DNA from: a virus | IMG/VR virus record: IMGVR_UViG_3300032249_000545 | Coordinates: 1-33,721 of that record | Strand: one strand, 5' to 3' | Length of the DNA: 33,721 nucleotides | Shown: piece after piece, positions 22,480 through 33,721 of the stretch | Layout of the letters: the number at the start of each line of letters is the position of its first letter | How positions within the stretch are numbered: position 1 is the stretch's first letter | Position numbers and translations under genes: made by a program | The notes under the pieces: generated by a model | What the model saw: the letters and a program-made list of their open reading frames with translations, nothing else | Database searches by the model: none | What the model was told of the DNA's origin: nothing

Positions 22480-22507
22480 AAAAAAAACCCCAGACCGAAA
22501 TCTGGGG
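22480..22507 (-). terminator. Rho-independent terminator of the leftward operon
   Basis: Stem 22488-22494 / 22501-22507 (CCCCAGA / TCTGGGG) with a 6-nt loop. Read leftward it is followed by eight T (22487-22480). It ends the long leftward operon before the integrase. Confidence 0.9.
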
Positions 22508-22566
22508 TGTCCACATAATGAGACTAGATATGGCTAGTGAGATTCTGATTCTGCTTATGTGTTTAG

Positions 22567-22608
22567 AAGTAACTTTTTAGAACGTCCAAAATTTTGGACG
22601 TAGTTACT
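22567..22608. promoter_or_regulatory. Nested palindrome, possible operator or attachment site
   Basis: A perfect 20-bp palindrome at 22582-22601 (ACGTCCAAAATTTTGGACGT) is flanked by AGTAACT at 22568-22574 and AGTTACT at 22602-22608, making a larger dyad. It lies between the leftward operon's last gene and its terminator, upstream of int. This is where an attP core with integrase sites might be expected, but no core can be defined without the host sequence. Confidence 0.5.
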
Positions 22609-22611
22609 CAA

Positions 22612-22797
22612 TCAGACTTCGCCCTCAATTTTAGTGCTGTTGCACTCATTGCACTCTGGTGGGTACTTTTCATCGAGACGTTCTCGGTCACCTGAATAGT
22701 TATCAACGCACTTGTCTCCGTCGAAGATTGAAACTTCGAATTCAATAAATGCAGAAATAAATTTAACTGTGTTACCGCAATCAAGGCACTTAGGCAT
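22612..22797 (-). CDS. Small zinc-ribbon protein
   Basis: A 61-residue acidic protein with C4-x2-C7 (CLDCGN) and C49-x2-C52 (CNEC) forming a zinc ribbon. Ribosome site GAGAGGAA precedes ATG. Last gene of the leftward operon; its start overlaps the preceding 38-codon gene by 8 nt. Function unknown. Confidence 0.68.
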   Translation of the reverse strand: MPKCLDCGNTVKFISAFIEFEVSIFDGDKCVDNYSGDRERLDEKYPPECNECNSTKIEGEV

Positions 22798-22906
22798 TTG
22801 TATTCCTCTCTACTTTCACCCAGACGAATCCGGAATTGTGTTTACTAAGTTCTCCAAGGAACTCTAACCATTCATCATTTACTTCAACAGTTATCTTGTT
22901 AGCCAT
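22790..22906 (-). CDS. Hypothetical 38-residue protein
   Basis: A very short gene from ATG 22906 with GGAG upstream, reading MANKITVEVNDEWLEFLGEL and on to NTNA. It overlaps both neighbours (TAATG with the excisionase-like stop, 8 nt with the next start), which supports real translation. The amphipathic helix plus strand suggests a small folded or partner-bound protein. No family recognised. Confidence 0.5.
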   Translation of the reverse strand: MANKITVEVNDEWLEFLGELSKHNSGFVWVKVERNTNA

Positions 22907-23097
22907 TACTGAATCTCCAATTCATTTGAATCACGATTTACTATCCAATCGTCGATTGTTGTCTGCTTCCATACTGGTCTGTTGCCAATCATTGCATCGT
23001 GGGTTGGAAGGGTGTCGCGTTCTCGATACTTGTATATCGTGCGAACCTTTACGCCGATTTGATTTGCGATATCGGTACTTGTTAGCCAATCTTTCAT
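22906..23097 (-). CDS. xis-like: Excisionase-like helix-turn-helix protein
   Basis: A 63-residue protein. LTSTDIANQIGVKVRTIYKY, then RERDTLPTHDAMIGNRPVWK and TIDDWI is the winged HTH of the excisionase/AlpA (HTH_17) family. These bind DNA at attachment sites and steer integrase towards excision, or act as regulators. It is two genes from int and overlaps the WhiB gene upstream by 4 nt. Excisionase role is inferred from size and location. Confidence 0.78.
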   Translation of the reverse strand: MKDWLTSTDIANQIGVKVRTIYKYRERDTLPTHDAMIGNRPVWKQTTIDDWIVNRDSNELEIQ

Positions 23098-23402
23098 ATT
23101 GAATTCTTACTTTCATATCGAGTCTCCCTACGTCGAATGTTCTTTCTTTCCTCTGCTGTAAGTCCACCCCAGATTCCGTAAGCAATCTTGTTGCTCATAG
23201 CAAAAGATAGACATTCTTTTATAGTTTCTGGGTTACATTGTTTGCATAACGATTTTGCTTTATCAGTTTTTACCAAATCCGTTGAGTCTGGAAAGAATGT
23301 ATCTGGGTCAACTGATTGACATGGTGCATCGACAATATCTGGTCTTTTAGTTGTTAATTCAAACCCAACAGAAAGTGTTTTCTTCGGTCTAGTCATTTTC
23401 AT
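23094..23402 (-). CDS. whiB-like: Second WhiB-family iron-sulfur regulator
   Basis: A 102-residue protein from ATG 23402, which has GGAG at the right distance; ATG 23414 contains that GGAG and is less likely. WhiB features are C28, C53-x2-C56, C64 and the GIWGG turn (76-80), then a basic tail. The last spacing is C-x7-C rather than the usual C-x5-C. It presumably binds host sigma factor and modulates transcription of host or phage genes. Its place beside the excisionase-like gene suggests a role in the lysis-lysogeny switch, which is inference. Confidence 0.88.
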   Translation of the reverse strand: MKMTRPKKTLSVGFELTTKRPDIVDAPCQSVDPDTFFPDSTDLVKTDKAKSLCKQCNPETIKECLSFAMSNKIAYGIWGGLTAEERKNIRRRETRYESKNSI

Positions 23403-23718
23403 TTTTATCTCCATATATCTCTGGGTTATTTTTGATGTGTTCTACGAACTTATCCATAACAGCAGTTAAGTCCTCTGGTGTAAGGTCGCAATACTTCAAC
23501 AAGATTTCAATCATGTGAAGCATTCCCCATATAAGCATCTCCGGTTCTAGATTGCGTTCTGCAATAAGAGTATTGAGATGTTCATTGGCAAGATGTTCTT
23601 TAACGTCCTGTGGCAAGCCGTCAGGTCGGTCGTGTTCGACTTTGAAGCCACGAACTACTTTCATAAATTCGTTGGCGAAATCGATTGAGTTAATTAAATC
23701 TGATTGATGTTTATTCAT
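23389..23718 (-). CDS. Hypothetical helical protein
   Basis: A 109-residue acidic, all-helical protein (VRGFKVEHDRPDGLP, LTPEDLTAVMDKFVEHIKNN). It overlaps the start of the WhiB gene. The structured element 23746-23876 lies 27 nt upstream of its ATG. No family recognised. Confidence 0.62.
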   Translation of the reverse strand: MNKHQSDLINSIDFANEFMKVVRGFKVEHDRPDGLPQDVKEHLANEHLNTLIAERNLEPEMLIWGMLHMIEILLKYCDLTPEDLTAVMDKFVEHIKNNPEIYGDKNEND

Positions 23719-23745
23719 TTATTTTCCTTTTTATTAATAGGGGAA

Positions 23746-23876
23746 GTCGAATGCGAGCAGGTACGTCTCGCTCTGTGAACCAAAAGTATAAAAAACACAC
23801 AGAGGTCGTGAACGTCCTTCGTAAGAGGAGAGTACCCATGCTAAGTACAAGTAACTTACGTTGACTCGCATTCGAC
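23746..23876. ncRNA. Structured intergenic element E1 (candidate RNA)
   Basis: A 131-nt element closed by a perfect 12-bp stem: GTCGAATGCGAG (23746-23757) with CTCGCATTCGAC (23865-23876). Inside, GGTAC-G-TCTC pairs with GAGA-GTACC (9 bp, one bulge), and CTCTGTG pairs with CACAGAG. It starts 8 nt after one leftward gene's stop and ends 27 nt before the next start, filling the gap. Strand and function are unknown; a leader, RNase III site or small RNA is possible. Confidence 0.5.
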
Positions 23877-23884
23877 AAAGTTAT

Positions 23885-24046
23885 TTACAGATTATGTTTT
23901 TGTATGCAGTTGAAACAAAAGAAAATAACTGGGTCACCATGTTCATCGTTGACAGTTTTTCCTGATGATTTCAATCCCTGTTGACAGCATTCGTCACAGA
24001 TATCTAACTGATTTGCTGTTACCGGAATAATTTCAACGTATCCCAT
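23885..24046 (-). CDS. Small zinc-ribbon protein (53 aa)
   Basis: A 53-residue gene whose ATG directly follows the upstream stop codon (TAA then ATG). It has C17-x2-C20 (CDECC) and C44-x2-C47 (CFNC), a zinc ribbon. Function unknown. Confidence 0.6.
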   Translation of the reverse strand: MGYVEIIPVTANQLDICDECCQQGLKSSGKTVNDEHGDPVIFFCFNCIQKHNL

Positions 24047-24250
24047 TTACTCTTCCTCTCCTTCTTTATACCCGTACATCTCTAGAAGAGTTTCTAGAAT
24101 GTTCCAACCTTCTTCGGTTGCTCTATCTTTGAATGAATCTCGAATCGTATGAAGTGCTTCGATTGCATCTGCATCACTCATATTAGGTACAAGTGATTGG
24201 ATATCTTCTGGACTCCACACAATACGAATTTGATTATCTTCATTTGCCAT
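24047..24250 (-). CDS. Hypothetical acidic helical protein
   Basis: A 67-residue acidic protein (WSPEDIQSLVPNMSDADAIE). It starts directly after the stop of the membrane protein gene and is followed directly by the next ATG. No family recognised. Confidence 0.58.
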   Translation of the reverse strand: MANEDNQIRIVWSPEDIQSLVPNMSDADAIEALHTIRDSFKDRATEEGWNILETLLEMYGYKEGEEE

Positions 24251-24436
24251 TTATTTGCCCCCATTAATTACTCGGTCAATCATTGCTGTGCATGAGCCAT
24301 AGCCCAATGTGTTTCCGTATTCAGTACCGACATAACAGATGTCACGAGTGGCATAAGTAAATAGCGATACAACAAGAACGATTGGAATGATTACGAGAAC
24401 CACCCAACCGCGACGTGTGAGATGTTGTTTAGACAC
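24251..24436 (-). CDS. Small single-pass membrane protein
   Basis: A 61-residue protein with one hydrophobic segment (residues 11-28, WVVLVIIPIVLVVSLF) after a basic N-terminus. Two cysteines (C34, C49) on the outer side could form a disulfide. It overlaps the HNH gene by 8 nt. Could be a holin-like or superinfection-exclusion protein, but nothing in the sequence decides this. Confidence 0.62.
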   Translation of the reverse strand: MSKQHLTRRGWVVLVIIPIVLVVSLFTYATRDICYVGTEYGNTLGYGSCTAMIDRVINGGK

Positions 24437-24857
24437 TTTGATTCCTCTCTATATGCATTTGATGTTTCCAAGTGTTTTGTTCACCATGAGTTTTTACTTG
24501 GTGACAGTTTGCACAACGCACATCGCACTTTGCGATTTCTGATTGCACGTCTGCAAGAGACTTACTCTTACCAACAAGTGATTTACCAATTACAAATTTT
24601 TTATCGCCTTTATGGTCAAGTTGAAGTCGTAGTGGGTCACGTTCACCACAGTCGATACATGGATTCTCCGATAAGTAATCGAAGAGCCATTGCTTGATAT
24701 CGATTCTGCGAGTGATGTAGTACCCACGATTACGTTGCCGTCTGCATGGCTTACAGATTGCAAGGTAACTGTTTCGTGATGTAACGACATCAAAGTTTTC
24801 AAGTAACTTTATCTCTTTGCACTCTTTGCATTCTTTTTGCGTTACTAATCGTGTCAT
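24429..24857 (-). CDS. HNH endonuclease
   Basis: A 142-residue protein. An N-terminal zinc site (CKECKE ... CKPCRRQRNRGYY) is followed by the HNH core: CIDCGERDPLRLQLDHKGDK, then AKCDVRCANCHQVKTHGE. Conserved His is in LDH and CANCH. It cuts DNA, either as a free-standing homing-type enzyme or in phage DNA processing. It lies within the operon with 4-nt and 8-nt overlaps, which argues for a phage function rather than a recent insertion. Confidence 0.88.
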   Translation of the reverse strand: MTRLVTQKECKECKEIKLLENFDVVTSRNSYLAICKPCRRQRNRGYYITRRIDIKQWLFDYLSENPCIDCGERDPLRLQLDHKGDKKFVIGKSLVGKSKSLADVQSEIAKCDVRCANCHQVKTHGEQNTWKHQMHIERNQSV

Positions 24858-25606
24858 ACCTTTTCCTGTGTGTAGAGAAGTGAGAGTCGAAGAGTTTTAA
24901 ACTTCAACTCTTTATGATTTGAAGGCGTTACATAACCAACAATGAATCGAGAGCCAGTCGTGTCAACGACGATTCCTTTGCGTAGACGACCATGTGCATT
25001 AATAAACACCTTGTCACCAACTAACACGTTGTATGGAACTACTTCATCTCTGTTAGTTATTCCACCATTCCAACGCTCTTGTGCGATAGCAATAAGTTCG
25101 TCACTAACTGCAAGTATCTTTGCTTGCAGGTCGATACGTTTCTTTGCTTTCTTCATTGTTGCTTCGAATGAATCAGTTTCGAATGTTCCTTTGACTACAG
25201 CAAACTGATACGAGAATGAAAGTTCCAGACTTGATTCTGTATCACCAATTTTGTATCCGAATGCAATGTAGGTTGCTGATGTCATTGGGTCAGATTCCAG
25301 AATTGAATTATGTAACTGATAATAATCATTTACATTTTCGTAAGTAACTGGGTCTAAGTAATGCCGGAAGATACGGTGATAACCAACAACAACAATTTGA
25401 TGACCTTTGTATTCCTCTTCCTGAATTGTAATTTCAGAAGTTCGCATTTGTGCATATCCGTTTAATCGCTTGCGACCATTCCAGATTGAATCTTGATTAA
25501 TACCCATTGATTGGTAATAATCTTTTTTGTAATAGTCGTGAAGTCTCCTTGCATATATAGAAGGAACTCCTGTTGTGAGGTTCTTATAGACAACTGGAAC
25601 TGTCAT
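24854..25606 (-). CDS. Hypothetical protein with C-terminal beta (KOW/SH3-like) segment
   Basis: A 250-residue soluble protein. Residues 60-130 look like beta strands (HQIVVVGYHRIFRHYLDP, ATYIAFGYKIGD). A helix rich in Lys follows at 140-175. The end reads GDKVFINAHGRLRKGIVVDT and RFIVGYVTP, like a KOW or SH3-type barrel. No family recognised. It ends with a 4-nt overlap with the HNH gene. Confidence 0.65.
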   Translation of the reverse strand: MTVPVVYKNLTTGVPSIYARRLHDYYKKDYYQSMGINQDSIWNGRKRLNGYAQMRTSEITIQEEEYKGHQIVVVGYHRIFRHYLDPVTYENVNDYYQLHNSILESDPMTSATYIAFGYKIGDTESSLELSFSYQFAVVKGTFETDSFEATMKKAKKRIDLQAKILAVSDELIAIAQERWNGGITNRDEVVPYNVLVGDKVFINAHGRLRKGIVVDTTGSRFIVGYVTPSNHKELKFKTLRLSLLYTQEKV

Positions 25607-25607
25607 A

Positions 25608-26231
25608 TTAAGCCACCATGTCCTGTGCTTCTAGAATTTTTTCTGCAAGGTATTGCATAGTCCTTCCGTCGATAACAAATTCGGCGCAAGGCAAGTAAGT
25701 TCCGGTAACTGAATCACGTTTGCGAGATACAGAACCTTGTACGTTCTTGATTCGTTCACCAAGAATTGATGCAAGAACTTCGGTGCATGAAGTAACAATG
25801 CGTTCAGCGTATGCATGAGCATCACGTTCCCTGCGTTCTTCTTCGGCTCTTTGAGCCTCATATTCAGCCTTCTTGCGTTCTTCTTCGGCTTCTTCACGAG
25901 TCCAACGAGTCTCAAGTGATGAGTATTCAGCAACGATATCTTGTGGACGTGCAAGCCAGTAAGTGTATGTATCTGGGGCATTGTTAGACCAGTCACTTGA
26001 TTTAACAAGATAACCAACAGAACGTGCGCCCTTATCTGCCAGTTTAAATTGTGGATTATCTGATGTATTACTACGAAATACCTCATATTGATATTTATCA
26101 AGTGATATTAATTCTGCTTTTGCAACAGAACGACGTTGAACTGTATCTGGATTTTTTTTATCTGCTGATGAGTAATCCCATGACGGAATGACTGCATAAA
26201 CAGTTCCTACTTTTAGGTCTGTAAATTTCAT
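25608..26231 (-). CDS. Hypothetical protein with central coiled coil
   Basis: A 207-residue protein. The N-terminal part (LKVGTVYAVIPSWDY) resembles a small beta barrel. Residues 108-140 form a highly charged coiled coil (REEAEEERKKAEYEAQRAEE). The C-terminal part is mixed alpha/beta. It lies 1 nt before the next gene. The similar beta opening suggests it works with the neighbouring 250-residue protein, but function is unknown. Confidence 0.62.
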   Translation of the reverse strand: MKFTDLKVGTVYAVIPSWDYSSADKKNPDTVQRRSVAKAELISLDKYQYEVFRSNTSDNPQFKLADKGARSVGYLVKSSDWSNNAPDTYTYWLARPQDIVAEYSSLETRWTREEAEEERKKAEYEAQRAEEERRERDAHAYAERIVTSCTEVLASILGERIKNVQGSVSRKRDSVTGTYLPCAEFVIDGRTMQYLAEKILEAQDMVA

Positions 26232-26263
26232 TTGTATGTATTCCTTTTCTGTTGAATTAGTAA

Positions 26264-26289
26264 GTGGGGCGCACCCTCATGCGCCCCAC
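26264..26289 (-). terminator. Strong 10-bp GC hairpin after the VWA gene
   Basis: Arms 26264-26273 and 26280-26289 (GTGGGGCGCA / TGCGCCCCAC) with a 6-nt loop, 5 nt after the VWA stop. No T-run follows on the leftward strand, so it may be an RNA-stability or processing hairpin rather than a true terminator. Confidence 0.7.
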
Positions 26290-26294
26290 CTGTA

Positions 26295-28298
26295 TCAATA
26301 AGAAACCAATCGACGATTGATTCCGTACTTCACTATTGACCGAACCAATCCGATTAAGTCGATTGGATTACGAATGACTTCACGAATTTCACAATGGTGT
26401 GAATTATTTTCGTTAAGTGTGACTGATTCATCACCGCTAGGAATGTATGCAAGTGCAGTAAGAACACCAGCATTATTCATGCGCTTGATTGCATCGTGAT
26501 TTGCCTCTTGATTGCCAGACCAATCGCCGTCAGTAATTGAGACGAAGAGACGTACTGGCTTTTCAGTTTCAGCAAGTAACTTAGTTGCGTAAGTGATTGC
26601 ATCATTTGCAACAGTTCCACCACCAGTACCAGCATCTCGAATCTGTGCGCCAGCCTTATCCTTTGCACGATAAAGAACGTTGGTTTGGTCATGGAATGTA
26701 ATGACTGTGCAATTTGCATCGATTCTATCTAGCGCACGTTTAATTGCGTACATAGCACGATATGCATTCGTTGCTTTGCTACCAGACATAGAACCAGAGA
26801 TATCAAGTGCAATTACACATTCAATCTCGGTTGCATCTTCACGACCCTCATTCCATTGGTCGAATACTGTGTCGAATTCATCGCCACGAAGATATCTGTG
26901 TGCATCGATACGACCTTGTGATTGGTATTTATCCCAAGCAGGGTCAAATGATGCACGCAAGCGTTCTAGTTCACGACCAAATGCAAGTGATGCGTGGAAT
27001 GTATTTGCATCAGGTGTGAGTGAGTGATAACGATTTAAATCTGGCTCTTTTGATTTGTTGGTAGAAAGAGAAGTGAGTCCACCAAGTTGTCGAAGAGTGT
27101 CATTTAATTCTTTGACGTTATCTGCATCATTGAGAATATCTTCAAGAAGATTATCAATTAATGTGTTGACGATATTGCCAGCAGAATCACCGGCAGAATC
27201 TCCACCAGTTGAATCACCAGAATCATTTGAATCAGAATCACTAGAACTATCTGAATCAATATCTGAATCAGAATCATCTACATCATCAAATTCAATGTCA
27301 TTGATATCAACATCAATAACTTTTTTATTCTTCAATGATTCAGCAAGTTCTTTTTCATCTTCGCCGTCATTAGCAAGTGCATTCTTTAAATCGTTTGCTT
27401 GCTTGCGTGCTGGCTGTGGTCGTGATTGTGCAGAGGTTTCTAAACCCTCATGTGGACGTGAGCCATGTCCAAATGGGTCAGAGATACGAACGACTGTATC
27501 GCCCTCTCCTGCGCCCTTTGAGACACGAATCTTGCCTGTACCAGTACCAGTCTCACCTTCACCTTCGCCCTCACCAGTACCGCCCTCACCGCCGTCTCCA
27601 GCCTGTGTAAGTAACTCGTGGAATCGCGCAATAAGTTCTTTTCCTTTTTCAGTATCAGCAGGAAAGAGAAGTGAACGATATTGAGTAACGACATCAGAGA
27701 TATCGTCGACAAGTTCCTGATGTGGATATGCATTACGAGAACGGGCTCGTAATTCAACAGGAAGATATCTGCGACCGCATAGCAACGGATATGAAGTATT
27801 GAATGCATCTGGTTTATCAACGAAGTGAATCAAGATTGTTGATGTAAACCAATCAATCGTTGACGGATACTTCGATGTAAATAGAAATTCGATGCGTGCA
27901 TCTTCTAAACAGTTATACGCCATGAAGAATTTATTCTCCCTGACGTAATCAAATAGTTCTGAACCCTCACGAGATGTGTAGAGAATGTGTGATATCTCGT
28001 GAAGGTCTAGACCCTTGATGCCAGCGATAGCACGAGCAGAATCAAGTTCTTCAATCATTCTGGAATTGAAAGTAACTTCTGATGCTGTCGACCATGCCGG
28101 TGCAGGTAACTTTGAATCTTCAATCTTTACAGTTACCTTGCGGAATGTGAATGCAGAATTAACACGACCGAAGAATTGTGTGAAGCGTTCTAACTTTTGC
28201 TTCTTAAGTTCTTCACGAGCCTTCTGCTCTTCATACTCTTTGCGACTGCTACCGAGACTTTCTAATTCCCAGTCTTTAATTGCTTGGTCGTAATTCAC
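26295..28298 (-). CDS. VWA-domain protein with HEXXH metallopeptidase-like N-terminus (CobT/CoxE-like)
   Basis: A 667-residue protein. Residues 97-140 have GLDLHEISHILYTS (H100, E101, H104) and later NCLEDARIE, as in VWA-MoxR-associated metallopeptidase-like domains. Residues 234-262 are Gly/Glu-rich and 326-374 are Asp/Ser-rich, both disordered. The C-terminal VWA domain has a full MIDAS: D499-I-S501-G-S503, T562 and D590 in ITDGD. It is paired with the MoxR-type ATPase directly upstream, 9 nt apart. Such pairs remodel or insert metal into protein complexes (CobS/CobT, RavA/ViaA); the target here is unknown. Confidence 0.88.
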   Translation of the reverse strand: MNYDQAIKDWELESLGSSRKEYEEQKAREELKKQKLERFTQFFGRVNSAFTFRKVTVKIEDSKLPAPAWSTASEVTFNSRMIEELDSARAIAGIKGLDLHEISHILYTSREGSELFDYVRENKFFMAYNCLEDARIEFLFTSKYPSTIDWFTSTILIHFVDKPDAFNTSYPLLCGRRYLPVELRARSRNAYPHQELVDDISDVVTQYRSLLFPADTEKGKELIARFHELLTQAGDGGEGGTGEGEGEGETGTGTGKIRVSKGAGEGDTVVRISDPFGHGSRPHEGLETSAQSRPQPARKQANDLKNALANDGEDEKELAESLKNKKVIDVDINDIEFDDVDDSDSDIDSDSSSDSDSNDSGDSTGGDSAGDSAGNIVNTLIDNLLEDILNDADNVKELNDTLRQLGGLTSLSTNKSKEPDLNRYHSLTPDANTFHASLAFGRELERLRASFDPAWDKYQSQGRIDAHRYLRGDEFDTVFDQWNEGREDATEIECVIALDISGSMSGSKATNAYRAMYAIKRALDRIDANCTVITFHDQTNVLYRAKDKAGAQIRDAGTGGGTVANDAITYATKLLAETEKPVRLFVSITDGDWSGNQEANHDAIKRMNNAGVLTALAYIPSGDESVTLNENNSHHCEIREVIRNPIDLIGLVRSIVKYGINRRLVSY

Positions 28299-28307
28299 AA
28301 TGTCTCC

Positions 28308-29183
28308 TTAGACGTTTGAGTGTTCGGTTTTAATTGAATCAACAGCAAGTCCGAGTTCTTCCTTGATGTTGTATGTAACACCTTCAAGAAGCATCTTGAC
28401 TGCAGGACGTTCTTCATCTGTAAAGTTATTGATGAAGTTCTCGACAGCGAAGTCGAATGACAATCCCTTTGCAACCTTCTCAAATGTTTTCAAGAGACGT
28501 GGAGAGATTGGTGTTTCGAAGATAGTGCCTCTATCTGATGAAGAGTATTCATTCTGTCGAGACGTTGCACGCATTCCGTTAGCAAGTTCCAAAAGTGAGG
28601 ACGATGTAACGATTTTCTTTTCAATCTCGTTGTCGTAGTCATAACGCAACTTGATTTCGAATCTATCTTTCCAAGCCTCATTAAGTAACTGTGTGCCACG
28701 ATAGTGAGGATTCTGGTCAGCGATAATGAGAAGGTCTGGGTGCGCCTTCACAACTTCGTTGCCATGACCCATGAGAGTGATTGAACGTCGGTCGTCAAGT
28801 AATGACATGAGATATTGCGACAAGTTCTTTGGCGCATTATTTAATTCGTTAATGAGAAGCACACCGCCTTCACGAACGATTCGTGTGATACCGCCGTCAA
28901 CCCATTCAAGTTTTCCGTCGGCATTTGGAAAGAGTCCACCAATCACTTGAGTGAAGTCGATTGCACTATTGCAAGGAACAGCAAAGAAGTTCAAGTGACG
29001 TTGAGCGCAGTACGCAAGTACCGCAGAAGTTTTACCAGTTCCAGTTGCACCTTCGGACAACACATTCATGTTGTTATCTGATGCAAAGTCGAACGTTTGA
29101 TATTCACCGATACCGCCAGCGAATGTTCGTGGAATGTAGTGTGATGTTGATTCGAGTGTTGGTACGAATAGAGATGTTGACAT
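28308..29183 (-). CDS. MoxR/CobS-like AAA+ ATPase
   Basis: A 291-residue AAA+ protein. Walker A is GATGTGKT (45-52); Walker B reads GGVLLINELN with Asn112 in place of the usual Asp before catalytic Glu113. Sensor 1 is IIADQNPHY and there is WKDRFEI downstream, the arginine-finger region. It belongs with MoxR, CobS and RavA ATPases, which work with VWA proteins, and the VWA gene follows directly. The 198-nt gap before it holds structured element E2. Family call is firm; the substrate is unknown. Confidence 0.9.
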   Translation of the reverse strand: MSTSLFVPTLESTSHYIPRTFAGGIGEYQTFDFASDNNMNVLSEGATGTGKTSAVLAYCAQRHLNFFAVPCNSAIDFTQVIGGLFPNADGKLEWVDGGITRIVREGGVLLINELNNAPKNLSQYLMSLLDDRRSITLMGHGNEVVKAHPDLLIIADQNPHYRGTQLLNEAWKDRFEIKLRYDYDNEIEKKIVTSSSLLELANGMRATSRQNEYSSSDRGTIFETPISPRLLKTFEKVAKGLSFDFAVENFINNFTDEERPAVKMLLEGVTYNIKEELGLAVDSIKTEHSNV

Positions 29184-29242
29184 TTTGTATTCCGTTTCTT
29201 TTAGGTTTTGGTTTGTTGGTTGTAGTTGGTTATTACGTTGTA

Positions 29243-29375
29243 TGCATAGTGGTGAGTAGCAAGCAACTCTCCATACGGACGGATTGGGCTTGGAAATGGG
29301 TTGGCATAAATGCGAACCGGAAGTCCATTGTCGCTCCGTACTGATGCCTGATTAACAGGTAGTCACCACTATGCA
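29243..29375. ncRNA. Structured intergenic element E2 (candidate RNA)
   Basis: A 133-nt element with a perfect 13-bp closing stem, TGCATAGTGGTGA (29243-29255) and TCACCACTATGCA (29363-29375). Inside, GGCAT (29303-29307) pairs with ATGCC (29344-29348) and CCTG with CAGG. Next to the arms are GTAGCAAG on the left and GGTAG on the right, as in E3. It begins 6 nt after a leftward stop and lies 59 nt before the MoxR start. Confidence 0.5.
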
Positions 29376-29381
29376 ATTTTA

Positions 29382-29642
29382 TTATTTATAGTCGGTTGTA
29401 ACTGCATCTGGGTTCTTTTGAATGATGCGCGATGCAAGTTCGACATCTTCTAATTGCGTTGTAAGTTCTTGGAACTCATTAAAGATTTCACATTCTGCAT
29501 CAATGAGTGGTTGCAACTTTTCAAGAATTGATTCAAAGGTTGCAACTATGTGAGGTGGTGCATCTATATTGTCGGCGTTATCCAGAGCCATATCAATGAC
29601 CATGTGAATCACACCAAGTTCTTTTAGATTGAAGTCCTTCAT
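29382..29642 (-). CDS. Hypothetical acidic helical protein
   Basis: An 86-residue acidic, helical protein (LGVIHMVIDMALDNADNIDA, then ILEKLQPLIDAECEIFNEFQ). Likely a helical bundle or coiled coil. It is upstream of the MoxR/VWA pair and could belong to that unit, but no family is recognised. Confidence 0.6.
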   Translation of the reverse strand: MKDFNLKELGVIHMVIDMALDNADNIDAPPHIVATFESILEKLQPLIDAECEIFNEFQELTTQLEDVELASRIIQKNPDAVTTDYK

Positions 29643-29651
29643 TGGTATCTC

Positions 29652-29933
29652 CTAACACCACATCAGAGGAACGAGAGCGTAGAAGATGTTTAAGAATGTA
29701 AATTCATCTTCTATCTTTAACAGTTCTTTAAATACGCCGTTATCTTCTGTACGACCATTCTCACATTTTTCATTGTGAAGAATGTGTGATGCCAAGAACT
29801 CACGAAGAACGAGAATGTTTTCTTCTTTAATAAGTTCTCGGACAGTTATTTCATTATCGATTTCATCATCGAGTTTGCCATTGATTGCAAGAATGATTTC
29901 GGCGTAATCAGTTCCCATAAATAAAGTGGTCAT
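29652..29933 (-). CDS. Hypothetical acidic protein
   Basis: A 93-residue acidic protein from ATG 29933, which has AGAGGGG upstream and overlaps the previous stop by 4 nt. A longer frame from 30023 would sit in the upstream gene and is rejected. It reads MTTLFMGTDYAEIILAINGK, then mostly helices. No family recognised. Confidence 0.6.
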   Translation of the reverse strand: MTTLFMGTDYAEIILAINGKLDDEIDNEITVRELIKEENILVLREFLASHILHNEKCENGRTEDNGVFKELLKIEDEFTFLNIFYALVPLMWC

Positions 29934-30229
29934 GCGAGAGCCCCTCTTACTATTGATTGGTGACGTGATGTCGTTGATGAGTATTTGATTGCAGGTACTG
30001 ACCAACCGAATTTGCCATGCCATGCGATTGGTGTGCCGTATGAGTAGATGATGTAATCCGGTTCATCTAATTCCATTTGCAATACAACGTCGGAAGGTAA
30101 ACGACCAGTTGCATATTTTGCGTGTTGGAATGTTCCAAGAAAACCAGAGAAGTTACTGGCTGTGAAGTTGATTCGGTTCTGAATGTATTCAGGTGCTTTT
30201 TTATTTGTAACAACAGTTGAGTAATACAT
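29930..30229 (-). CDS. Hypothetical protein
   Basis: A 99-residue protein with aromatic-rich segments (YIIYSYGTPIAWHGKFGWSV) suggesting beta strands. It contains DVVLQMELDEPDY. Overlaps the next gene by 4 nt. No family recognised. Confidence 0.6.
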   Translation of the reverse strand: MYYSTVVTNKKAPEYIQNRINFTASNFSGFLGTFQHAKYATGRLPSDVVLQMELDEPDYIIYSYGTPIAWHGKFGWSVPAIKYSSTTSRHQSIVRGALA

Positions 30230-30231
30230 TT

Positions 30232-30438
30232 TTATTCTCCTAAATAATTATTAATTTGATGAGTTGCTTCACGAAGATTAGAAGCAAGAATGCGATGATG
30301 TTTGTCACCAATATTAATAACGAAGTCATAGCGAGATGCATAACGACCAGAGCCACGAAGAATTCGAACGCCCTTGTAGGTATATGTAGTTCCCCATAGT
30401 CCGGTGAACTTATTTAGTCCTTCAATTTTTACTGACAT
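30232..30438 (-). CDS. Hypothetical small basic beta-rich protein
   Basis: A 68-residue protein of mostly short strands (TTYTYKGVRILRGSGR, YDFVINIGDKHHRILAS) and one helix. Its ATG comes directly after the stop of the previous gene. No family recognised. Confidence 0.6.
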   Translation of the reverse strand: MSVKIEGLNKFTGLWGTTYTYKGVRILRGSGRYASRYDFVINIGDKHHRILASNLREATHQINNYLGE

Positions 30439-30609
30439 TTATTTCACCTTCACTATCTGTAAGTTGCGAAGAAAGTTGATGTCGTAGTTGTCGCTCTTTG
30501 TAGCGAAGTAACGTGTGCCGTCATTGAAGATTAAATCGATGCGTTGCTCGTCAATAGTTCCACGAGCAACGATTTCGTTCTTTGAATTAATGAATGTTTT
30601 GGTACGCAT
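30439..30609 (-). CDS. Hypothetical 56-residue beta-rich protein
   Basis: A short gene from ATG 30609 with GGAGAAA upstream. It reads MRTKTFINSKNEIVARGTID and on to LRNLQIVKVK. Mostly beta strands by pattern. Stop codon adjoins the next ATG (TAA ATG). Tight packing supports it. Confidence 0.55.
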   Translation of the reverse strand: MRTKTFINSKNEIVARGTIDEQRIDLIFNDGTRYFATKSDNYDINFLRNLQIVKVK

Positions 30610-30638
30610 GGTATTTCTCCTTTTGGTTGATTGATTGA

Positions 30639-30740
30639 TTAAGCGATGTCGTAGGTGAGGTATTCCTTCTGTGCAATTTCTTGACGTTCTTTTTCTGCAA
30701 GAACGTCGTTCCAGAATTCATCAGTTATTTCGATTGCCAT
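30639..30740 (-). CDS. Hypothetical 33-residue peptide
   Basis: A very short gene from ATG 30740 with GGAGATAAC upstream, encoding MAIEITDEFWNDVLAEKERQ and a short tail ending YDIA. Acidic and helical. Position between two small genes and a good ribosome site support it; size keeps confidence moderate. Confidence 0.45.
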   Translation of the reverse strand: MAIEITDEFWNDVLAEKERQEIAQKEYLTYDIA

Positions 30741-30749
30741 TGTTATCTC

Positions 30750-30905
30750 CTATTCAGGTTTCCATGTTGTCCAGCGAATTGCACCGGCAACGTCTAGTCG
30801 GATTTTTACAAGGTCTGGTTTGATTACAACAATTTCTTTAATCGTTCCAGTTTCTTGTGTTTTTGTAGTGGTGTAGATGTCACCGATTTCGTATGTTTTG
30901 TTCAT
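30750..30905 (-). CDS. Hypothetical 51-residue protein, first gene of the leftward operon
   Basis: A 51-residue gene from ATG 30905 (GGAAACAC upstream) reading MNKTYEIGDIYTTTKTQETG, ending TTWKPE. Its alternating pattern (IKEIVVIKPDLVKIRLD) suggests a small beta barrel. It is the promoter-proximal gene of the leftward operon; structured element E3 ends 29 nt upstream. Confidence 0.55.
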   Translation of the reverse strand: MNKTYEIGDIYTTTKTQETGTIKEIVVIKPDLVKIRLDVAGAIRWTTWKPE

Positions 30906-30934
30906 TGTGTTTCCTTTCGTTTATGTGTTCACCA

Positions 30935-30996
30935 CATTCACCAGTAAGTAGCAAGGTTCGAAGCCAACGGCTCGAAAATGTAGATACTGGTGAATG
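30935..30996. ncRNA. Structured element E3 in the leader of the leftward operon
   Basis: A 62-nt element with a perfect 12-bp stem: CATTCACCAGTA (30935-30946) with TACTGGTGAATG (30985-30996). Inside, TTCG-A-AGCC pairs with GGCT-CGAA. The left arm is followed by AGTAGCAAG and the right arm preceded by TGTAGA, as in E2. It lies 29 nt upstream of the operon's first start codon. Confidence 0.5.
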
Positions 30997-31013
30997 CAGA
31001 AATCACATAAGCA

Positions 31014-31115
31014 GAATCACTATGCATTCAATATCAACTTCAATGTGCTATCGAACAGATTGGTTACTGTCTGCACCGAGTAAGTAGCAATGCATAATTC
31101 GCAATGTAGTTACTT
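31014..31115. promoter_or_regulatory. Element E5 and further dyads upstream of the leftward operon
   Basis: GAAT...TATGCATT (31014-31028) pairs with AATGCATAATTC (31089-31100) over 12 bp with a 3-nt bulge. Overlapping it, AGTAA (31079-31083) followed by GTAGCAATG pairs with TTACT preceded by AATGTAG (ending near 31114), the same order as E2 and E3. The motif AGTAAGTAGCAA (31079-31090) is identical to that in E3. Probably operator, promoter or leader sequence for the leftward operon. Confidence 0.4.
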
Positions 31116-31977
31116 TGGCATTCCATGATTGATGTTGATTGCATTCCATGAATCTCACTAGCCCCACACTATTCACAATTAATTTCATAATCGTTTCGAA
31201 GTAACTTAGTTGTCGTTGAGTGCGTGCATATTGCATTTATTTATCAACGAGAATTAATTGCGCCATTACAGAATCATTTATTTATTCCAGTAACGACCAA
31301 TAACAATTAAGTCGTGTGTATCTAGTCTCTATGTAATTAAAAGTGCGAATCGCTTTCCGTCACCTGATATCGATTTCCCTAGGGATTCATTATGAATCGA
31401 ATCAGTTCACCGCTTTTGCGATTTACTTCCTGAGCCTTTTTCACGCTTTCGGTTTATATCTCGAATGCGCCTAGGCGATTCTGATTCGAGACACTCCGCA
31501 GGGGGTGTGCTAGGAGAATTGAACCACAGGTGTCGGACATCGTGCGACAGGGGTGTGAATAGGTCGGTGATGCGTGTCCGGCGCACAGGCTCGTTGAGCG
31601 TGGGGGCGTTTACGCTCAAATGCCCCTCACAAGCCCTAGAAGCCCGATTAGAGGCGATTACCCCCCATATTGACCCAATGACCCCAGAGGGGGGCTGATA
31701 GGGGCTGTAAGGCGCATCTGGCAGGGTGGCGATTTAGTGACGTGGCTCACACATGAGCGTGGGCGATTGAAGTGACCTTGAATAAGTAGTTGAAAGTTCA
31801 ATTAGTTACATGGTCGTGATGACGTGATGACATGGTGGGAAATTCGGCGCAGGGATTTTTTTTCCAGTAATGATTTAACAGATTCCTAATCAACGACGTA
31901 TTAAAGAGATAGAGAGAGAGAAACACTTAACACAATTTCTGCCAAGGAAGAGTAAGTGTTATGGAAGGGAGATATCA
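31116..31977. other. Non-coding region with GC-rich island
   Basis: No convincing gene is seen. Notable parts: a direct repeat GCATTCCATGA near 31118 and 31141; dyad GATTCATTATGAATC near 31383; a distinctly GC-rich stretch about 31490-31760 with stem-loop 31594-31619 (TTGAGCGT / ACGCTCAA) and CCCC-AGA-GGGG near 31682; a doubled GTGATGAC near 31817; purine tract GAGATAGAGAGAGAGAAA near 31906; and dyad AACACTTA (31922-31929) / TAAGTGTT (31953-31960). It separates divergent transcription units, so promoters, operators, an origin or a packaging site are possible. Confidence 0.5.
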
Positions 31978-32070
31978 ATGTATCCGATATCAGAATTGGT
32001 AAGTGATGAATCAATTACCAATGTAGCAATCTGGTTACAGAACAATGCATCACATAGTGATGATAAGTAA
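31978..32070 (+). CDS. Possible 30-residue peptide
   Basis: ATG 31978 with GGGAG eight bases upstream encodes MYPISELVSDESITNVAIWL and a short tail ending HSDDK. A hairpin (31922-31960) lies just before it. It is the only well-signalled short frame in the non-coding region, but it could be chance. Confidence 0.3.
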   Translation: MYPISELVSDESITNVAIWLQNNASHSDDK

Positions 32071-32089
32071 CTGTTAACAGATAACAGAT

Positions 32090-32214
32090 GTAATCAGGTG
32101 ACTATCTAACAACAGGCTAACGAGCCACGATGCCATTGTGCAGTTGTAATCGATAGTTACCTGATTACGTTATTTAATATCAGAAGTGAAATCACTTAGT
32201 TACTACCTGATTAC
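32090..32214. repeat. Repeated ACCTGATTAC in both orientations
   Basis: GTAATCAGGTGACTATC (32090-32106) and GATAGTTACCTGATTAC (32152-32168) form a 17-bp inverted repeat with one G-T pair. A further direct ACCTGATTAC is at 32205-32214, next to dyad AAGTGAAATCACTT (32184-32197). Spacing of tens of bases suggests protein-binding sites, such as a repressor operator or origin. Confidence 0.6.
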
Positions 32215-32290
32215 AACGTGGGAAGGTGGCTGTCAGTCTGGTTACTCCAACGATTAGCAAGCCATGTGGCGATGTAGTAGCCGAAGCCAC

Positions 32291-32312
32291 GTCACCAAAC
32301 TGTCACCAAACT
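32291..32312. repeat. Tandem 11-bp repeat (iteron-like)
   Basis: GTCACCAAACT is repeated twice without a gap (32291-32301, 32302-32312). Two copies are too few to call an iteron origin, but it lies in the repeat-rich non-coding region. Confidence 0.55.
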
Positions 32313-32336
32313 ATTGAAAATCAATGCTTTTGAGCA

Positions 32337-32434
32337 GGTGTTAACACCAGCCCACCTGATTGATAGTCAGGTGGTGATGTGAACATGATGCAACTGACCA
32401 GTTGACCCCCCACCCTTAAGCACGCGCACGCGTG
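32337..32434. promoter_or_regulatory. Three adjacent palindromes before the rightward genes
   Basis: GGTGTTAACACC (32337-32348) is a perfect palindrome. CCACCTGA (32352-32359) pairs with TCAGGTGG (32367-32374). CACGCG-CA-CGCGTG lies at 32421-32434. They are 75-170 nt upstream of the ParB-like gene. Operator or terminator functions are possible; the second is a good hairpin without a T-run. Confidence 0.45.
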
Positions 32435-32508
32435 GGAGCAGCCAGGTTGGAGCCATGATTGAAGGGTTTAGGCCTAGGCAGTAGCCAAAATGAGCCACAA
32501 TAGGCCAC

Positions 32509-32784
32509 ATGCCCATATTCTCAGCCGAACAGTTCAAAGGCATCTATAAGCCTAGTGAATACGGCATGAACTGGGACGAGGTTCCTCGTCACAGGCTCTT
32601 CCACATGCGTATGACCCCGGATGCCCTCAACGATATGGAGAACAGCATCAAGGCAGAGGGCATCAAGGTCCCCGTGAAAGTTGACCGCATGGTGGGTAAG
32701 GTCGTTGATGGTCACCACAGAGCCGCTATTGCTCTACGCCATGGGCTTGATATCCCAGTGGAATATAAGAAGGCTGACGAATGA
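32509..32784 (+). CDS. ParB/Srx-like domain protein
   Basis: A 91-residue protein with MTPDALNDMENSIKAEGIKV followed by KVVDGHHRAAIALRHGLDIP, the core of the ParB N-terminal (ParB/Srx) fold, where GHHR replaces the usual GNRR/GHRR. The HTH part of true ParB is missing. Such short phage proteins may bind nucleotides (CTP) or act as nucleases. It is the first gene of the rightward unit. Confidence 0.8.
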   Translation: MPIFSAEQFKGIYKPSEYGMNWDEVPRHRLFHMRMTPDALNDMENSIKAEGIKVPVKVDRMVGKVVDGHHRAAIALRHGLDIPVEYKKADE

Positions 32785-32790
32785 GCAACA

Positions 32791-33219
32791 ATGAGTTCGA
32801 CTCACATGGCTGAATACAACTCTGGAGATGGGCGCTGGCATATCCGTCCCACATCGTTGCCTACATTGAATTTCCATCAATTCAACCCTCATATTAGTTT
32901 TAGCGCTGCCGGTCCTTACTCAAACCACGGCCAGAAGGTTCATTACCTCTCTATGCATACTCAAGACCCTTATAGCAATAACGAAGTGAAGATGGGGGAG
33001 ATTGAGTGGCACAAAGACAGAGGCGAAATTCTTCGAGTACATGTAGATGAGCCATACCGCCGTCTTGGGGTAGCACATACTCTTTTCCACGAAGCAAAGA
33101 ACATCGCAAGAAACCAAGAATTAACCGAGCCAATTCACTCATCAGATAGAAGTACTATGGGAAATAAGTGGGCTAAGGCTGTCGGTGGCGTACTACCGAA
33201 GAGGATGAAGAGGATATAA
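32791..33219 (+). CDS. GNAT-like acetyltransferase
   Basis: A 142-residue protein. MGEIEWHKDRGEILRVHVDE leads into PYRRLGVAHTLFHEAKNIAR, matching the acetyl-CoA-binding R/Q-x-x-G-x-A/G turn (RRLGVA) of GNAT enzymes, and the end STMGNKWAKAVGG is common in actinophage members. Start ATG 32791 lacks a strong ribosome site; ATG 32806 is an alternative. Substrate unknown. Confidence 0.75.
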   Translation: MSSTHMAEYNSGDGRWHIRPTSLPTLNFHQFNPHISFSAAGPYSNHGQKVHYLSMHTQDPYSNNEVKMGEIEWHKDRGEILRVHVDEPYRRLGVAHTLFHEAKNIARNQELTEPIHSSDRSTMGNKWAKAVGGVLPKRMKRI

Positions 33220-33223
33220 CCAT

Positions 33224-33577
33224 ATGAGCAAGAAGAAGGGTGTGCCAAAGCCACTAGCCTTTGCCAACCTCTCACCGAAGCAATTCCTGCCCAAGATATT
33301 TCATGGCTCCCACTCTCTCTTAAAGTCTGGTGACATGGTTCTTCCGGCAAAGTCCAACCCTAAATTTACAGATATAGCCAGAGGTGGCGGCGATATGGCG
33401 TGGGCAACCACCGATGCTAAAGAGGCAGCCTCCTATGGTCCTCATGTCTATGAAGTCAAGCATATGGAAGACCCAAAGAAGACAACAAACAACCCCTTCC
33501 CAGAAGAACCAATGGAAGGTTCAGAGGTATTTGGTAGTAAACAAGGTTTTCGTGTCGTTAAAAAAGTAAAGCGTTAG
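33224..33577 (+). CDS. Arr-like ADP-ribosyltransferase-fold protein
   Basis: A 117-residue protein resembling rifampin ADP-ribosyltransferase (Arr): IFHGSHSLLKSGDMVLP (H27-G-S), then MAWATTDAKEAASYGPHVYE and QGFRVVKKVKR, in the same order as HGT...GD...VYxVEP...LRVV in Arr. It would transfer ADP-ribose from NAD to a protein or small molecule. Start 4 nt after the upstream stop. Whether the catalytic residues are complete cannot be judged by eye. Confidence 0.72.
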   Translation: MSKKKGVPKPLAFANLSPKQFLPKIFHGSHSLLKSGDMVLPAKSNPKFTDIARGGGDMAWATTDAKEAASYGPHVYEVKHMEDPKKTTNNPFPEEPMEGSEVFGSKQGFRVVKKVKR

Positions 33578-33615
33578 ATTTCTTTCTCAGTAACGGCCGT
33601 GATAGCGTGCCGCCC

Positions 33616-33721
33616 ATGTCGCCACGAGCAGATTTAGATACTGAAGAGGGTCGTCAAAAGGCTAGGGAAGACTCAAAACGCCATTATCAGCGTAATAAAC
33701 CCGCCTACATAGCCAGAAACA
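33616..33721 (+). CDS. Start of a basic protein cut by the window edge, possibly HNH endonuclease
   Basis: From ATG 33616 (in-frame GTG at 33607 also possible) the frame stays open to the edge, reading MSPRADLDTEEGRQKAREDS and then KRHYQRNKPAYIARN. This RxYQRNKxAY segment is typical of the basic N-terminus of small phage HNH endonucleases. The HNH motif itself would be outside the window. Confidence 0.5.
   Translation, partial: MSPRADLDTEEGRQKAREDSKRHYQRNKPAYIARN

Follow-up and report, generated by a model that had tools for sequence, protein, structure and literature searches.

Two putative non-coding RNA families and a probable leader hairpin in the leftward operon of related uncultured phages

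Comparative sequence analysis identifies two structured elements, E1 and E2, in gaps of a leftward phage operon as new non-coding RNA families that occur in related uncultured phages. A third element, E3, forms a hairpin where the same operon begins. The explanation we favour, and hold to be probable though well short of certain, is that E1 and E2 are separate phage RNA families that are cut out of the operon transcript, with E3 serving as a 5'-leader hairpin.

The window (the whole stretch of DNA analysed) is a 33,721-nt virus record, to which no near DNA match was found among named phages. The rightward gene set encodes a DNA polymerase, a UvsX-like recombinase and a ribonucleotide reductase, while the leftward operon encodes a MoxR-type AAA ATPase, a VWA/CobT-like protein and a WhiB regulator, with an integrase further left. 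The WhiB regulator points to an actinobacterial host, and hence the phage probably infects actinobacteria. Relatives were collected as 31 loci via the MoxR protein and 13 via the gene after E1 (some on the same contigs), and additional phages were found by patterns derived from E1. As the gene order of the leftward operon is kept despite large protein divergence, its gaps can be compared one by one between relatives. The features of the window considered here are:

22487–22508, minus strand: hairpin resembling an intrinsic terminator, where the leftward operon ends
23389–23718, minus strand: gene for a 109-aa protein, next after E1 in the window but not a constant neighbour of E1
23746–23876, minus strand: E1 RNA, 131 nt, matched by covariance model R1 with E=1.9e-28; perfect arms of 12 bp, GTCGAATGCGAG
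26295–28298, minus strand: gene for the VWA/CobT-like protein (Pfam VWA), same operon as MoxR
28308–29183, minus strand: gene for the MoxR-type AAA ATPase (Pfam AAA_5), next after E2
29243–29375, minus strand: E2 RNA, 133 nt, with a 13-bp closing stem, homologues and compensatory pairs; perfect arms TGCATAGTGGTGA
30932–30999, minus strand: E3 operon-leader hairpin, at the same position in relatives; perfect arms of 12 bp at 30935–30996 (62 nt), CATTCACCAGTA
31000–31019, minus strand: conserved promoter-like motif TGATTCTGCTTATGTGATTT, directly before E3

All three stem-closed elements are present where the preliminary description had placed them. E1 and E2 begin 8 nt and 6 nt past a stop codon, the distance to the next start codon is 27 nt for E1, 59 nt for E2 and 29 nt for E3, and the arm sequences are wholly different, in each case as first described. 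Across the whole window, stems with perfect arms of 11 bp or more and loops of up to 220 nt are limited to E1–E3 and one pair at 32089–32215. For arms of at least 12 bp spaced by 20–150 nt, the three observed compare with a mean of 0.295 in dinucleotide shuffles of the window (n=200), which gave a maximum of two such stems and never three. When the gaps were shuffled singly, such a stem arose in 1, 2 and 0 of 2000 shuffles for the E1, E2 and E3 gap, respectively. On the minus (mRNA) strand, E1 and E2 each fold with a z-score of −4.9, and E3 with one of −7.3. The proposal that these are conserved RNA structures is borne out by covariation in E1, compensatory pairs in E2, and E3 arms that have changed completely yet still pair. 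Their description as a single family did not survive: E1 and E2 are separate RNA families and E3 is a leader hairpin, a common family being ruled out as neither the E1 model (R1) nor the E2 model (R2) detects the other element. A CUAC/UUGCUAC internal loop beside the closing stem is common to E2 and E3.

E1 is, on the comparative evidence, a conserved RNA built on a three-way junction, and the sequence of its closing stem is free. The 12-bp closing stem P1 pairs 23746–23757 with 23865–23876, and encloses P2 (CGTAAG/CTTACG) and P3 (GGACGT with ACGTaCC, one bulged A). The layout reads P1 (12 bp, any sequence, G-C closed), UYAA, P2, AA, P3 (with the bulged A), UG and P1'; the junction UYAA..AA..UG is conserved, while the extension of P3 is variable. 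Three near relatives show paired changes in the inner helices, and a pattern scan recovered homologues with wholly different 12-bp arms around an identical core. The covariance model R1, built from 24 sequences, gave 44 strong matches (E<1e-13), every one on the mRNA strand and including more than 10 loci outside its building set. In the 32 distinct sequences, 98.6% of cells are paired in an alignment fitted to the model; an alignment made with MAFFT agrees, with 97.7% paired and 18 of the 24 pairs covarying. Changes on both sides are seen in 18 of 24 pairs compared with 11.6 in shuffles (32 sequences), and double-change cells number 145 against 42, with slid controls dropping to 1–8 pairs. 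The covariation that the preliminary description had called for is hence present in the homologues of E1. When every pair of columns in the model-fitted alignment was ranked by corrected covariation, helix pairs took all ten top places, with no loop-loop pair among them. G.U cells number 24 on the mRNA strand compared with no A.C cells, the signature expected of the opposite strand, which indicates that an RNA of the mRNA strand is under selection. Besides the two covarying inner helices, some 20 nearly invariant unpaired or junction bases are kept. In one homologue (L075) the P1 stem is degenerate.

E1 occurs as a single copy in 16 of the 17 phage records searched; the exception, G010 (L027), belongs to a lineage in which the gap is empty. 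The absence of E1 from this lineage (L005, L027, L048, L051) suggests it is not universally needed. In the window group E1 lies mid-operon, while in three other phages (L075/L077, L080 and L085) a stop codon precedes it and an intrinsic terminator comes after it, and the gene ahead differs from that of the window group. It is flanked by different genes again in L054/L056. As the neighbours vary and operon ends are also occupied, E1 is not the leader of a fixed gene, and the constant position upstream of one gene class by which riboswitches and cis-leaders are recognised was not found for it. Its unusually strong covariation, single copy number and changing neighbours together mark E1 as an independent RNA gene, not a leader. 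A MoxR homologue is present in most records with E1, and the MoxR-VWA operon usually accompanies it. No E1 was detected in cultured phages of Gordonia and Brevibacterium that carry MoxR-VWA genes; the cultured actinophages in which these genes are nearest (Cantare, ScarletRaider, Gray, GMA6, DalanDe and DSL-LC01) yielded none. A blastn search of E1 against phage records returned short chance matches only. Twenty pattern hits in bacterial genomes were taken as chance since all have at most 6 closing pairs, and a Streptomyces candidate (L094) was rejected with a model E-value of only 0.049.

E2 is a real but patchy RNA, as far as can be judged from the three sequences on which it rests. Its homologues (L044:1238–1370 and L045:1831–1964) span 133–134 nt and occupy the same gap upstream of MoxR, which is therefore the downstream gene in all three phages carrying E2. 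The arms differ between these phages yet pair, ten pairs show compensatory change, and long stretches of the core (CUACCUG..GCGACAAUSGACUUC..AAGCCCAAUYC..GUUGCUUGCUACU) are kept. The preliminary description had set store by the presence of the elements in the same gaps of related phages; for E2 this holds in L044 and L045, whose MoxR is 72% identical to that of the window, and fails in L002, L003 and L004, where MoxR is 95–96% identical and no element is present at the MoxR gap. Run against 44 loci and 21 records, the E2 model, built from the three sequences, detected no copy outside these phages. Pattern hits L110–L112 were discarded: L110 lacks the closing stem, and the other two are of equal span. 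A different stem-closed element of 178–182 nt occupies the MoxR gap in other relatives (L018:1715–1892, L019:2405–2585, L023:5553–5730, and L026 upstream of 3679), and its outer stem is kept around a short loop in L015, L016, L020–L022, L024 and L025.

E3 is most likely the 5'-terminal hairpin of the operon message. More than a dozen distinct alleles occupy the same position, with mRNA-strand stems of 13–18 bp and arms that range from that of the window to GATCGATCACCA, different yet pairing in every listed allele. The arms were compared by anchored search, as MAFFT misaligns ten alleles owing to the varying arm lengths. In the window the stem reaches 15 bp on the mRNA strand (with two G.U pairs) and 12 bp on the other strand. 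The corresponding lengths are 16 and 13 bp in L015, where G.U pairs likewise lengthen the stem, and 16 and 17 bp in L003; the longer stem off the mRNA strand in the latter makes the strand polarity of E3 less clear than that of E1. The internal loop is CUAC/GCUAC in the window, L004 and L015, and AGCGA or UGCGA in most others. A motif containing TATGT lies directly ahead of the hairpin in the relatives compared, and from this arrangement we infer that the motif functions as a promoter, with transcription starting at or very near E3.

In the model we favour, E1 and E2 would be co-transcribed with the leftward operon messenger RNA. The long stem of free sequence unites the RNA ends and clamps the conserved core, which for E1 is the three-way junction. 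Release of the clamped RNA from the message would most likely involve cleavage by RNase III close to the stem, or trimming by exonucleases that the stem halts. Once free, E1 and E2 would act in trans, probably through binding a protein. E3 would lie at or very near the transcript 5' end, probably protecting the message or controlling its start. We infer transcription, excision, stability and action in trans of E1 and E2 from sequence features. No convincing promoter of their own was found at E1 or E2 in the window, weak promoter-like matches being fewer than in shuffles. RNase III processing, one of the roles first suggested, would be a reasonable route for releasing the elements; RNase III typically acts on longer stems than the 12–13 bp present here, a shortfall that stacked inner helices could make up. 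Of the other suggested roles, that of a small RNA is the best match for E1 and, by analogy, for E2, while that of a leader fits E3 only, since E1 is also found at operon ends right before terminators and its neighbours change.

It is nonetheless conceivable that E1 and E2 are cis-acting leaders, controlling translation or transcription of the next gene in the manner of a riboswitch or a protein-binding leader. Their position 27–59 nt ahead of a start codon, the MoxR gene behind E2 in three of three phages, and the location of E3 at the operon start would all suit such a role, and proximity to start codons in the window may give E1 and E2 a local effect on the next gene. We nevertheless regard it as unlikely that this is their function: E1 can have behind it different genes, another RNA (E5, below) or a terminator not directly followed by a gene, its perfect and often G+C-rich P1 leaves scant room for switching, and in the window neither E1 nor E2 is followed by a terminator. 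A small chance should also be given to the closing stem being the only functional part, as an RNase III site, decay barrier or segmental stabiliser with an incidental interior. This would explain why arm sequence is free provided pairing is kept, and why the 178–182-nt MoxR-gap element is reduced in some relatives to its outer stem and a short loop, but a mere processing stem would not conserve the invariant bases and covarying inner helices of E1 or the core of E2.

Two further explanations fare less well. Elements acting as DNA, either cruciforms or dyad operators bound by a DNA-binding protein, appear improbable and are disfavoured for E1 and E2. The TTATGT/ACATAA dyad and the arms around E3 could form an operator; against this, the G.U pairs of E1 fall on the mRNA strand only (24 versus 0 A.C), and the mRNA strand gives the longer E3 stem in the window and L015, although not in L003. 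An origin from small inverted-repeat transposons or retron-like RNA would account for the patchy presence of E1 and E2 in related phages and for their long terminal inverted arms. It is very improbable given that each record has one copy of E1, that the arms differ between phages, and that the same gaps are kept across large protein divergence. Retron msr-msd RNAs are likewise structured RNAs closed by inverted arms of about 12 bp and free sequence, but a retron was rejected here, as a reverse transcriptase domain was found in none of 16 records (fragments), with positive controls.

Searches for known RNAs gave no Rfam 15 match at the gathering threshold, whether in the window or among seven loci with E1, E2, E5 or E6 (E5 and E6 being further candidates described below). 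An Rfam E-value search of 22500–33721 returned chance snoRNA-like matches only (up to E 5), ARAGORN gave no tRNA or tmRNA hit, and nothing was found in the literature searched on the E1, E2 or E3 RNAs. A parallel in genomic setting is DicF of the Qin prophage of E. coli, a small non-coding RNA within a phage operon (PMC10448788, PMC12197685). Judged by synteny and sequence, E1 is similarly placed within an operon or at its end, with no convincing promoter of its own. The likeness of DicF to E1 and E2 is that of a non-coding RNA borne in a phage operon, and no sequence relation is claimed; DicF is 53 nt long, pairs with ftsZ mRNA and has neither a three-way junction nor a free-sequence clamp. 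The phi29-type pRNA is a phage RNA of similar size to E1, with a three-way junction and paired ends. Its junction has been described (PMC5340915). In contrast, E1 is mostly found in the MoxR-VWA operon and not by packaging genes, and has no Rfam match; furthermore, phi29-like genomes are small, while the records here reach 95 kb. Bacterial Y RNAs resemble E1 in having ends paired in a long stem, and a VWA-domain protein is encoded nearby in the present phages. A Y RNA acting with Ro was rejected, since the TROVE (Ro) domain was found in 0 of 17 records with a positive control, and no Rfam match was obtained. The manA and wcaG motifs of cyanophages are phage-borne structured RNAs likewise obtained from comparative genomics (PMC2864571). 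These are proposed regulators of metabolic genes, whereas E1 also occurs at operon ends.

To our knowledge, few structured non-coding RNAs of actinobacterial phages have been described. E1 comes with a covariance model that is ready for use and offers a concrete target for bench work, and if E1 and E2 act in trans, they would be new means by which phages handle the host cell.

Further RNA candidates were seen. In many relatives, a second structured RNA with a 17-bp stem, E5, lies 8 nt downstream of E1 (L006:13838–13965, L007:7518–7646, L008:13425–13551, L013:13854–13982, L044:6967–7101 and L045:7453–7589). E5 is 127–137 nt long, has a long closing stem, shows 8 compensatory pairs, and is not present in the window. 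A tentative extension of our model, possible but doubtful, is that at least four non-coding RNAs (E1, E2, E5, E6 and perhaps the MoxR-gap element of L018) share one clamped-core plan and form a toolkit excised from operons to act in trans, possibly with the MoxR-VWA proteins. The E6 candidate is located in a noncoding stretch beyond the operon start (window 32090–32168, minus strand, within the wider stem 32089–32215). It has homologues at L002:5621, L003:5194, L004:55, L027:5676 and L010:3103, and shows compensatory change in 8 of 29 predicted pairs.

Sequences resembling those of the operon start recur elsewhere. A hairpin-like copy of the internal-loop motif of E2 and E3 (GTAACTAC..GCTACTTAC) lies upstream of the promoter-like motif at 31080–31115 of the window (minus strand), in a stretch that folds no better than shuffles. 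The promoter-like motif followed by a hairpin (AAGTAACT..AGTTACT) is found again on the opposite strand at the leftward operon end, pointing inward, with copies at window 22546–22620, L002:15063–15127, L014:10092 and L023:13226. It is possible that this opposite-strand copy gives rise to an antisense transcript.
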